A stretch of DNA of 64,000 nt from Lachnospiraceae bacterium (GTDB lineage Bacteria > Bacillota > Clostridia > Lachnospirales > Lachnospiraceae): the NCBI GenBank assembly GCA_017482205.1, contig JAFUNK010000018.1:44304-108303 (forward strand), read 5' to 3'. The translations under genes were made by a program, and so were the position numbers. How positions within the stretch are numbered: position 1 is the stretch's first letter; every line of letters starts with the position of its first letter. The notes under the pieces were generated by a model. That model made no database searches, was not told the origin of the DNA, and saw only the letters and a list, made by a program, of their open reading frames with translations. Positions 36,621-39,377 of the stretch are shown here, piece by piece.

Positions 36621-38929
36621 TGAAAAAGCAGGTCATGGAATATGCATCAGGAAATGAAATGGCGGCTATTGCCATCAAGCAGATTGGATATGATTTGATG
36701 GGCTATTATCCCATTACTCCTTCTACCCAGATTGCAGAAAATCTGGATATTATGCGTGCAAACGGCGAAACAGATTTAGTCATGGTAGCGGCAGAAGGGG
36801 AGCATAGTGCGGCAGGTATCTGTTATGGTGCGTCGGTAGCCGGTGGGCGTGTTATCAATGCCACCAGTGCCAACGGACTTTTGTATGCTATTGAACAGTT
36901 TCCGGTGCAGTCCGGTACGAGGTATCCTATGGTTATGAATGTGGTGTGCAGAACGGTTTCAGGACCGTTATCTATTAAAGGCGACCACAGTGATATTATG
37001 TATATTTTAAATGCAGGCTGGCCGATTTTGTTTGCAAGTACGGTACAGCAGGTATACGATTTTAACATTATTGCATTAAAACTGGCAGAAGCAGTGCGAC
37101 TTCCGGTGGTGGTGGCATATGACGGATTTTTTACCAGTCATCAAAAAAGCCGATGCAATAGATTTGAAGAAGATGAGACGGTAAAAGAATTTATAGGTGA
37201 AAAACAGGAAAAATATCCCTTTCTGGATTTAGAGCATCCCATAACGGTTGGTTCGTATATGAATGAGCCGGATATTATTAACAACAGATACCAGTTGCAC
37301 TTAGCAATGGAAGAGGCCAGCCGTCTGTTGCCTCAGTTGTTTGCTGCCTACAAGGAGATTTCGGGAAGAGAATATGGTAAAGTAGAAGGAATCCATTGTA
37401 AAGATGCCAAAAATCTGTTGGTTCTGTTAGGTTCTTCCTATGATACTGCTATGGAAGCGGTAGAAGAAATGCGGCAGCAGGGAGAAAAGGTAGGAGCGGC
37501 TACTTTGCACGTACTGCGTCCGTTTCCGGCAAAAGAACTGGCAGAGTTAATCGGTAATGCTACAAATATTCTGGTGGCTGACCGCCAGGACAGCTATGGG
37601 GCAGGCGGCGGTAATTTGTCCTTGGAAGTACGTGCCGCCATGCAGAAAAACGCAAGTCGGGTAAAAATAAAAAGTCTTGTCTATGGGCTTGGCGGTAAGG
37701 ATTTCTTTAAAGAAGATGCCAAAGCAATGCTTGCATGGGCAGAAGATGATTCTAAGCCGGATTTTGCCTATTATGGAGTGACACCGGGAGAAACTGCGGG
37801 GGCAGAGGAACAGCCACTGTTTGCGCCTGTCACGGGCGAGATGACCCGTATAGGGGCAACGAAGGTAGAGTGCGCAGAAGTAACACAGGGCACAAGCGGA
37901 GAGCATCAAAGCGGGCAGGCAGTAGCACAAGATGCGGCAGAGCAGGGAATGGCACAGGAAGCAAGCACGCAGGTGAGCCCACTCAAGGTCACCGGTGGCA
38001 CTCTGAATGCAGTTACAGCCATGCCGGGACGTATTGCACCCGGACACGGAGCATGCCCCGGCTGCGGCATACCGGTCAACTTAAATCTGCTTCTTAGAGG
38101 AATCGAAGACCCGGTGGTGTTTTTATTCCAGACCGGTTGTGGCATGATTGTAACAACAGCTTATCCCAGAACAAGTTTTAAAGTGCCGTACCTTCACAAT
38201 CTGTTTCAGAACGGAGCAGCAACCTTAAGCGGTGTGGCTGAAATCTGTTACCGCAAGCAGCAAAAAGGAGAAATACCGCCGGGAGACATTATTTTTGTGA
38301 TGGTGAGCGGTGACGGCGGCATGGATATCGGAATGGGCTCTGCCATAGGCACGGCACTTCGCGGACACAGACTGCTTATTTTTGAATATGATAACGGCGG
38401 TTACATGAACACCGGTTATCAGCTCTCTTATTCCACACCGTTAGGGGCCAGGAGCTCCACTTCCCATGTAGGAAAAGCACAGTACGGCAAGACCTTTTTC
38501 CACAAGGATATGCCTAAAATCATGGCAGCCACGGGCATTCCCTATGTGGCTACCGTGGCAGAGTCCAATCCTACGGATTTTATCAAAAAAGCAGCTAAGG
38601 CAGCCTATTATGCCAAGACTACGGGAACGGCTTATGTAAAAGCCATTTCCGCCTGTCCCTTAAACTGGAACGACAAACCTGCTACAGAGCGAAGGGTAAT
38701 CGAAGCCGCCGTAAATAGTTGTTACTTCCCATTATATGAAGTGGAACAGGGCGTAACCAGACTGTCCTATGACCCGGAAAAAACAGGTAAAAAAATTCCT
38801 GTTCTTGACTGGCTCTCCATGATGGGACGAACCAAGCATTTGCAAAAGGAAGAATACCGGGATGTGGTAGAACGGATGCAGCAGGAAATAGATAATAGAT
38901 TTTATGAATTGAAAAAGAGGACAGAATAG
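36620..38929 (+). CDS. 2-oxoacid:ferredoxin oxidoreductase, fused alpha and beta (TPP) subunits
   Basis: The 769-aa protein fuses the alpha subunit (about residues 1-390; GYYPITPSTQIAENL and AEGEHSAAGICYGAS) to the thiamine-diphosphate beta subunit (about 470-769; APGHGACPGCG with iron or TPP-near Cys residues, and the TPP/Mg motif GDGGMDIGMGSAIG). The joining segment (about 395-465) is a Gln/Ala/Gly/Glu-rich linker (QSGQAVAQDAAEQGMAQEAS) that looks like a simple spacer. With the upstream gamma-delta fusion it gives a complete enzyme from two polypeptides. It oxidises a 2-oxoacid to an acyl-CoA and reduces ferredoxin. The downstream hairpin overlaps the toxin promoter. Confidence 0.9.
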   Translation: MKKQVMEYASGNEMAAIAIKQIGYDLMGYYPITPSTQIAENLDIMRANGETDLVMVAAEGEHSAAGICYGASVAGGRVINATSANGLLYAIEQFPVQSGTRYPMVMNVVCRTVSGPLSIKGDHSDIMYILNAGWPILFASTVQQVYDFNIIALKLAEAVRLPVVVAYDGFFTSHQKSRCNRFEEDETVKEFIGEKQEKYPFLDLEHPITVGSYMNEPDIINNRYQLHLAMEEASRLLPQLFAAYKEISGREYGKVEGIHCKDAKNLLVLLGSSYDTAMEAVEEMRQQGEKVGAATLHVLRPFPAKELAELIGNATNILVADRQDSYGAGGGNLSLEVRAAMQKNASRVKIKSLVYGLGGKDFFKEDAKAMLAWAEDDSKPDFAYYGVTPGETAGAEEQPLFAPVTGEMTRIGATKVECAEVTQGTSGEHQSGQAVAQDAAEQGMAQEASTQVSPLKVTGGTLNAVTAMPGRIAPGHGACPGCGIPVNLNLLLRGIEDPVVFLFQTGCGMIVTTAYPRTSFKVPYLHNLFQNGAATLSGVAEICYRKQQKGEIPPGDIIFVMVSGDGGMDIGMGSAIGTALRGHRLLIFEYDNGGYMNTGYQLSYSTPLGARSSTSHVGKAQYGKTFFHKDMPKIMAATGIPYVATVAESNPTDFIKKAAKAAYYAKTTGTAYVKAISACPLNWNDKPATERRVIEAAVNSCYFPLYEVEQGVTRLSYDPEKTGKKIPVLDWLSMMGRTKHLQKEEYRDVVERMQQEIDNRFYELKKRTE

Positions 38930-38955
38930 ATAAACACCGCAGATGTTAATATAAT
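38927..38955 (+). promoter_or_regulatory. Promoter of the type I toxin
   Basis: TATAAT (38950-38955) is preceded at 17 bp by TAGATA (38927-38932, 4/6 to consensus). The predicted start site is about 20 bases before the toxin ATG. The promoter overlaps the hairpin at the end of the oxidoreductase gene. Confidence 0.5.
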
Positions 38956-38968
38956 GCGTCTGCGGTGT
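38934..38968 (+). terminator. Hairpin after the alpha-beta oxidoreductase gene
   Basis: A 10-bp perfect stem (38934-38943 with 38959-38968) with a 15-base loop is present. The T tract after it is weak, so termination may be partial. Confidence 0.55.
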
Positions 38969-38981
38969 GTTCTTGATTTGA

Positions 38982-39071
38982 ATGTACGAAGTTTTAAGCC
39001 TGTTATTTTTAGGCGGTTCGTTTCTGATTGCACTGCTTGCCTACATAGATAGGAACAACAAGCGAAAATAA
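38982..39071 (+). CDS. Small hydrophobic toxin of a type I toxin-antitoxin system (holin-like toxin family)
   Basis: This 29-residue peptide starts MYEVLSLLFLGGSFLIALLA and ends in a basic tail DRNNKRK. The pattern YEVLSLL, one membrane helix, then charged tail matches the 'putative holin-like toxin' peptides of Firmicutes, which damage or depolarise the membrane when over-produced. There is no strong ribosome site directly upstream, which is usual for type I toxins. Two hairpins follow, and an antisense promoter faces the gene from the right. It lies between the oxidoreductase and a two-component system. Identification is from memory of the family. Confidence 0.75.
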   Translation: MYEVLSLLFLGGSFLIALLAYIDRNNKRK

Positions 39072-39162
39072 ATAAGCCCACCTTTGTACTTGGCCGGTAG
39101 AAGGTGAGCTTAAATACTTAACTTCGAGGCTAACCACTTTGTGGGCGGTTACTCTTTTTTAT
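39064..39162 (-). ncRNA. Antitoxin antisense RNA (predicted)
   Basis: From the promoter at 39169-39197 a minus-strand RNA of about 95-100 bases would run leftwards. It would be complementary to the toxin mRNA 3' region and last codons, and would stop at a hairpin (39101-39111 with 39074-39084, one G-U pair) followed on that strand by a T-rich stretch. The convergent, 3'-overlapping layout is the standard one for this toxin family. Confidence 0.6.
39131..39160 (+). terminator. Terminator of the toxin mRNA
   Basis: TAACC (39131-39135) pairs with GGTTA around a short inner stem and is followed by CTC and a T run (39153-39160). The toxin transcript would end here, overlapping the antisense RNA. 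Confidence 0.6.
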
Positions 39163-39168
39163 GTCTAC

Positions 39169-39197
39169 ACTATATCATGTATCCCAATTTTTTTCAA
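39169..39197 (-). promoter_or_regulatory. Promoter of the antitoxin RNA
   Basis: On the minus strand TTGAAA (39197-39192) and TATAGT (39174-39169) are separated by exactly 17 bp. It is stronger than the toxin promoter, as expected for an antitoxin. Confidence 0.7.
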
Positions 39198-39377
39198 CTC
39201 TATTTCTACGTTTTTATATCAATCAACATATTCTAAGATGATAAATCTCCAAAACCACCTCCCCAACCTCAACAATTCTTGAACTTTGGTTGAAACAGAA
39301 TTGAATAAGTACTGGTAAATTTTATGAAATAGGCTTATTATCAGTAGTAGGATTGTTAACGGAAGTGGAGGCAATGA

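Follow-up and report, generated by a model that had tools for sequence, protein, structure and literature searches.

The Locus in the Window

We analyzed a 64,000-nucleotide stretch of DNA from a Lachnospiraceae bacterium (assembly GCA_017482205.1, contig JAFUNK010000018.1, positions 44,304 to 108,303 of the forward strand), referred to here as the window, for a small locus that follows the gene of a 2-oxoacid oxidoreductase. The locus has an open reading frame (ORF) of 29 codons on the plus strand (38982-39071), which encodes a Hol_Tox peptide, and a putative antisense RNA gene that converges on it from the minus strand. The original prediction took these elements for a complete, compact type I toxin-antitoxin pair. 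Comparison with loci of the same genus makes it likely that the window holds a 5'-truncated copy of a Hol_Tox-type locus, TxpA/RatA-like in layout, in which the toxin is silent or nearly so and the antisense unit is intact. Complete loci share homology with the window from the ORF through the antisense promoter; in place of what they carry upstream of codon 3, the window has the end of the oxidoreductase gene and a terminator-like hairpin.

The product of the ORF, MYEVLSLLFLGGSFLIALLAYIDRNNKRK, is a hydrophobic peptide of 29 residues with a basic tail, in agreement with the original prediction. It matches the Pfam family PF16935 (Hol_Tox) with an E-value of 1.6e-9 and 37.9 bits, above the gathering cut-off of 23.3, over peptide residues 2-29 and profile positions 4-34 of 34, and the suggested profile comparison with holin-like toxin families was thus successful. 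A scan against NCBIfam returned a weak ComI match alone (19.9 bits against a cut-off of 55). Absence of the peptide from homologous loci would speak against a toxin of this kind; it was looked for, and the peptide is present in relatives.

The Antisense Unit

The antisense unit of the window copy is probably intact. A promoter scan identified TTGAAA-17-TATAGT on the minus strand (39169-39197), with TG preceding the -10 box; from this box, the start of a predicted antitoxin RNA of about 95 nucleotides (nt) can be placed (39065-39162, minus strand), supported by folding and covariation. This RNA would cover the 3' untranslated region (UTR) and the terminator of the toxin mRNA and reach the stop codon and the last codons, as originally described, and its predicted ends give the overlap of about 100 nt with the mRNA 3' end that is typical of txpA/RatA-like pairs. 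Judged by sequence only, the window copy has, opposite the toxin mRNA, the separately promoted antisense RNA gene that a type I system requires.

Folding and the alignment of relatives place the antisense terminator hairpin at 39074-39111 (minus strand). One of its pairs is C-G in the window and U-A in most relatives; another is G-U on the antisense strand, where the sense strand has a C-A mismatch. A plus-strand hairpin followed by a T run (39126-39160), conserved in relatives, would be the (ancestral) terminator of the toxin mRNA, and the same stretch doubles as the 5' hairpin of the antisense RNA (helix 1; 86% of cells paired). The evidence for the two terminators claimed comes from folding and conservation and not from the terminator scan, which lists neither and has one other hit (1 observed against 2.2 expected). 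The minus strand at 39060-39163 folds at -31.9 kcal/mol (z -4.4, with 0 of 200 shuffles as good); the plus strand at 38960-39165 gives an ordinary fold (z -0.9, equaled or bettered by 37 of 200 shuffles). Scanning the window with Rfam at gathering scores gave one tRNA alone and no antitoxin RNA family.

The arrangement recurs among related loci. The terminator motif is present in 44 of 49 places, a set that includes the window and in which L006 repeats L042, and in 37 of these 44 the promoter pattern lies within 75 nt, with a spacing of 17 in 35 cases, 16 in one and 18 in one. Shuffles of the same 44 stretches contain the pattern in 7.3 on average and 12 at most (100 rounds), which bears out the minus-strand consensus promoter with 17-bp spacing. 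Terminator and promoter occur together in 34 distinct sequences, of which 32 were aligned and two (L104 and L063) left out as odd. When a structure based on the window fold is applied to this alignment, pairing extends to 87.6% of cells, and both sides have changed in 9 of 21 pairs, a number that 0 of 500 shuffles reach; seven of these are among the 11 pairs of the terminator hairpin and two among the 10 of the 5' hairpin. Slid versions of the structure give 1 to 5 such pairs, with 16.5 to 49.8% paired. On the other hand, the count of further pair types is ordinary (198 of 500 shuffles are as high), and a slide of +1 comes close behind (covariation score 0.100 against 0.109, 17 pair types against 19). 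Each of four pairs fails to form in many rows (columns 18-49 in 14 rows, 20-47 in 11, 21-44 in 14 and 79-99 in 23). As the rows are related, the covariation figures are not to be read as probabilities. Together with the profile match and the conservation, the covariation supports the earlier assignment to a type I holin-like family with a convergent antisense RNA.

Comparison With Complete Relatives

We searched 101 genomes of the same genus with the DNA at 38927-39200, scoring at most seven candidates per genome, so that the counts are lower bounds. At least 31 of the 101 genomes have matches (the window's own included; 30 of the 100 others), often in several copies each. The non-self alignments begin at query position 53 or later, where the ATG of the ORF is at 56, and many of them end only at 252-271, within the antisense promoter or beyond it. 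Complete relatives have a conserved leader 5' of the ORF, of the type GGAGCAACCGTGTTACAAGGTGGTAGCCTCCC...AAGAAGGGAGGTGGTG..ATG, preceded by what we judged by eye to be a promoter. Their start codon lies two codons 5' of the window ATG, which corresponds to their codon 3. The conserved leader is absent from the window, in which the triplets ATT and TGA precede the ATG; since this TGA (38979-38981, plus strand) is in frame and immediately 5' of the ATG, no farther-upstream start is possible for the ORF, and it marks the apparent point of truncation.

In the window, the 22 nt 5' of the start codon form a duplex of -5.6 kcal/mol with the 16S tail (the anti-Shine-Dalgarno sequence), compared with -15.8 to -20.9 kcal/mol in 21 of the 22 relatives scored; one relative gave no start by the rule used, and in L045 and L049 the rule chose an ATG a few bases 5' of the likely start. 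A loose Shine-Dalgarno match with two substitutions at 38859-38869 lies inside the oxidoreductase gene, more than 100 nt before the ATG, and was taken as chance. The window's genome has three further loci of other subfamilies (G000:C18:70556-70639, G000:C19:64432-64521 and G000:C16:10164-10241, or L100, L101 and L002), which carry the leader, the Shine-Dalgarno sequence and the leader/antisense inverted repeat treated below, and whose duplexes reach -16.8, -16.8 and -21.5 kcal/mol. Those on C18 and C19 exceed the Hol_Tox cut-off, and that on C16 is a weak peptide match (E 0.043), Hol_Tox-like by layout.

A toxin promoter had been proposed within the terminator region of the oxidoreductase gene, at TAGATA-17-TATAAT (38927-38955, plus strand). 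In our consensus scan this sequence fits at 10 of 12 positions with a perfect -10 hexamer, and it is one of 8 such matches in 2.2 kb, against 4.8 +/- 2.0 in shuffles. Its first hexamer opens with the oxidoreductase stop codon, and its -10 hexamer sits in the loop of a terminator-like hairpin 3' of that gene (38934-38968, plus strand; 13-bp stem, -23.7 kcal/mol by folding). Among the relatives compared no counterpart was seen, and other sequence stands in its place. The proposal is not confirmed, given the near-chance matches, the position in a hairpin loop and the lack of a counterpart, and the promoter would be cryptic at best. The supposed promoter in the neighbor's terminator is better read as the junction at which a toxin copy appears to be cut. 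Because the putative promoter is close to chance and without a counterpart in relatives, the complete type I layout that was predicted is not supported: the window copy has no leader, native promoter, ribosome-binding site or ancestral start codon, and so no toxin mRNA of the kind that marks a type I pair, equipped with transcription and translation signals of its own. An intact ORF with a conserved peptide, the perfect -10 hexamer and the intact antisense unit would fit a complete, working compact locus, with the toxin transcribed from TAGATA-17-TATAAT and translated without a Shine-Dalgarno sequence. We find this very unlikely in view of the promoter results and of the strong Shine-Dalgarno sequences in the 21 relatives scored and in the three other loci of the window's genome.

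In complete relatives, the leader and the 5' end of the antisense RNA are near copies of each other, i.e., an inverted repeat at the DNA level. A test with long flanks did not find this repeat in the window (z -0.2) and gave values near chance for L046, L055 and L104; for L058, where a second copy of the leader sequence adjoins, it scored a direct match (65) above the inverted one (38). As the long-flank test is diluted, a narrow test was applied as well to 31 complete copies (21 of the first round, three of the window's own genome and seven later ones), leaving out L104, which is without the 3' motif. The duplex of leader and 3' UTR has z <= -3.3 in 28 of the 31 and is weaker in L046 (-2.2) and in the own-genome copies on C18 (-2.3) and C19 (-1.3). 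In 27 copies no more than 7 of 300 shuffles match the inverted-repeat score, and in L046, L041, L039 and L085 13-27 of 300 do. By raw count, 5 or 6 of the 6 Shine-Dalgarno bases are paired within the leader hairpin in all 31 copies. In intact relatives the leader would hide its own Shine-Dalgarno sequence and is complementary to the 3' UTR, and the antisense RNA would pair over the mRNA 3' end.

Decay Across the Genus

We took two halves of 121 bases from the complete relative L048 and used each as a query against 138 genomes of the genus, with at most six candidates scored per genome. The left half matches at least 42 places in 29 genomes, the right half at least 74 places in 42 genomes. Fifty-six of the 74 right-half places reach 50 bits and were kept; two of the 18 weaker ones left out were read as well, one of them truncated (L133) and one complete (L137). 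A left half on the same strand within 700 nt accompanies 34 of the 56 places and is missing from 22, eight of which were judged too close to a contig end and 14 not. Twelve of these 14 were read (two in G111 were left out): 11, the window included, are without Shine-Dalgarno sequence and start, and in the remaining place, G129:C116, two insertion sequences split the locus. Shine-Dalgarno sequence and start are also missing from four of the 34 paired copies (L088, L087, L054 and L095). In total, 15 copies in 11 genomes, including that of the window, are without toxin start signals and keep antisense-region sequence, not all of them independent, as L087 and L088 have the same antisense sequence and L047 and L089 share a deletion. 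The antisense promoter pattern is kept in 10 of the 12 copies tested and not in L059 and L062.

The reverse situation, a left half without a right half, applies to 8 of the 42 left-half places. Three are at contig ends, two have a right half detected with the window query, one is the split locus, one (G106) is a weak place that was left unread and one is a true case (L131), the one reverse case read, whose ORF is itself cut within the tail. Part of the asymmetry is due to search sensitivity, since the left half gives fewer and shorter matches.

Insertion sequences interrupt toxin-antitoxin copies at G129:C116:31500-35717 (L126), G052:C29 (L104) and G129:C119 (L127). Transposase-like ORFs were read in L126, and apparently the same element end lies at the same site in all three; we take the L126 elements to be IS110-like, between leader and ORF, and IS3-like, in the antisense terminator loop. 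At L130 (G056:C30:54804-54917), a toxin-less antisense unit lies on the same strand as, and directly 5' of, an apparent gene start, and the terminator of this unit might serve that gene as a leader element.

Reading the window copy as truncated is supported by the Pfam match, the start of homology at the ORF, the absence of leader and Shine-Dalgarno sequence, the in-frame TGA and the retention of the antisense unit, and by the 14 other copies of the genus that lost Shine-Dalgarno sequence and start in the same way and kept antisense-region sequence. The locus is thus probably a broken or silenced copy and not a complete toxin-antitoxin pair. The antisense RNA would still be made and end near the stop codon. 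Toxin would not be made, or in traces at most, where transcription runs through the oxidoreductase hairpin or starts at a cryptic promoter, with initiation that needs no Shine-Dalgarno sequence; any such mRNA would still be faced with the antisense RNA that overlaps it. Loss of the toxin first, with the antitoxin kept, is the order expected of safe decay, and the pattern of lost start signals and kept antisense sequence makes the decay order of type I loci countable within one genus.

Several observations weigh against a dead toxin. The ORF is open across its 29 codons, and residues 2-29 of the peptide recur unchanged in L039 (28 of 28), the five differences all being synonymous, from which selection on the peptide appears recent or ongoing. 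L039 is the sole identical peptide among 14 relatives compared; L035 is one residue off and the rest more, where the difference counts of L040, L042, L049 and L050 are inflated by an insertion. The position of codon 3 is also Met in L038 and L042, so that an ATG is available for starting. The chief point against a dead toxin is that the peptide was selected until recently and may be still. The comparison covers 28 codons, with no outgroup for the truncation event.

A further possibility is that the window copy is a solitary type I antitoxin under selection, an anti-addiction RNA acting in trans on incoming Hol_Tox elements or other mRNAs, with the ORF as a passenger. The repeated loss of toxin start signals next to a kept antisense region, the terminator-hairpin pair that differs from most relatives on both sides, and published E. 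coli loci with orz only and an expressed antitoxin (PMC11264685) agree with such a function. Neutral decay in which the toxin is forced to die first, however, predicts the same pattern, and predicted trans pairing with the toxin mRNAs of the genome's three further loci is not convincing (z -0.4, 0.0 and -2.3; 25 mononucleotide shuffles each). Furthermore, within the window's genome, an assembly that is 74% complete, the left-half query had no match and the right-half query found the window copy only. A solitary-antitoxin function is possible for the window copy, and as an overall account we regard it as unlikely. Also unlikely is the broader proposal that Hol_Tox loci of the genus repeatedly become solitary antisense genes, the window copy being one kept active as a shield against incoming complete copies.

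Genomic Setting and the Junction

The neighbors of the probably truncated copy are the 2-oxoacid:ferredoxin oxidoreductase, whose alpha- and beta-like parts share one ORF (Pfam POR_N/PFOR_II/TPP_enzyme_C), and, on the other side, a response regulator, itself followed by an ORF that resembles a histidine kinase, so assigned by reading only. The toxin-antitoxin stretch was not found 3' of 20 oxidoreductase orthologs from Lachnospiraceae metagenome-assembled genomes (MAGs), within the 189 to 2999 bases of downstream DNA searched (189 only in L066), in a search that found the window as positive control; a 21st locus, gammaproteobacterial and of 25% identity, was left out. No response-regulator ortholog occurs near these 20, apart from one 25% match in L083. 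Fourteen oxidoreductase and five response-regulator loci of the genus, compared over 220-330 bases, have no junction in common, and so no clean empty site could be demonstrated. A box, CAACAATTCTTGAACTTTGGTTGAA, at 39270-39296, 5' of the response-regulator gene, is a possible operator; it is conserved before the orthologs in L113 and L115 and not in L116, L117 and L124.

The junctions of the window recur in no other genome (138 genomes, two candidates scored each), which also counts against a genuine truncation: the junction 38981/38982 is seen on one MAG-like contig alone and could therefore be an assembly chimera, in which a fragment of a normal toxin-antitoxin locus was joined to the end of the oxidoreductase gene. 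The MAG-like character of the assembly (28 contigs) and the position of several relatives' copies at contig ends are in line with this. The contig, however, spans 108 kb and continues on both sides of the locus, and similar truncations lie well inside contigs of other genomes (e.g., G056:C30 and G084:C16), making a chimera highly improbable.

Comparison With Known Systems

The window copy is a degenerate further member of the known Hol_Tox type I kind, and the reading as a complete toxin-antitoxin pair is corrected to a truncated copy. It resembles other PF16935 peptides in its hydrophobic stretch and basic tail and differs from its relatives in having lost the first two codons, the start codon and the translation signals. 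A literature search for Lachnospiraceae with holin-like or type I toxins turned up no title on such loci. Three type I pairs of C. difficile have been described as overlapping and convergent (PMC6563280), and a holtox (PF16935) gene of streptococcal prophages as without known function (PMC11357604).

Orphan antitoxins allow another comparison. The orz family is unrelated to Hol_Tox loci. At the orz-only loci of E. coli (PMC11264685), as in the window, a type I antitoxin RNA gene has outlasted its toxin gene; the window differs in that the greater part of the toxin ORF remains.

For txpA/RatA and its relatives, antisense pairing at the 3' end of the toxin mRNA and ribosome-binding sites that are self-sequestered or near-perfect have been described (PMC6562991). 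Similar to txpA/RatA and bsrG/SR4 of Bacillus subtilis, the complete relatives have a strong, self-sequestered ribosome-binding site as in txpA, whereas the window copy has neither ribosome-binding site nor leader, and its antisense-mRNA pairing is a predicted one. With Fst/par(pAD1), the complete relatives share convergent promoters, terminator overlap and a leader hairpin over the Shine-Dalgarno sequence. The Fst RNAs are described as transcribed across direct repeats in the DNA, giving complementary RNAs (PMC7472228). The window, without its copy of the leader, has no such direct repeats. In the complete relatives the repeats are inverted, so that the leader and the antisense 5' end have the same sequence in both RNAs, a design that, unlike the direct repeats of Fst, offers a regulatory scheme of its own that can be tested.
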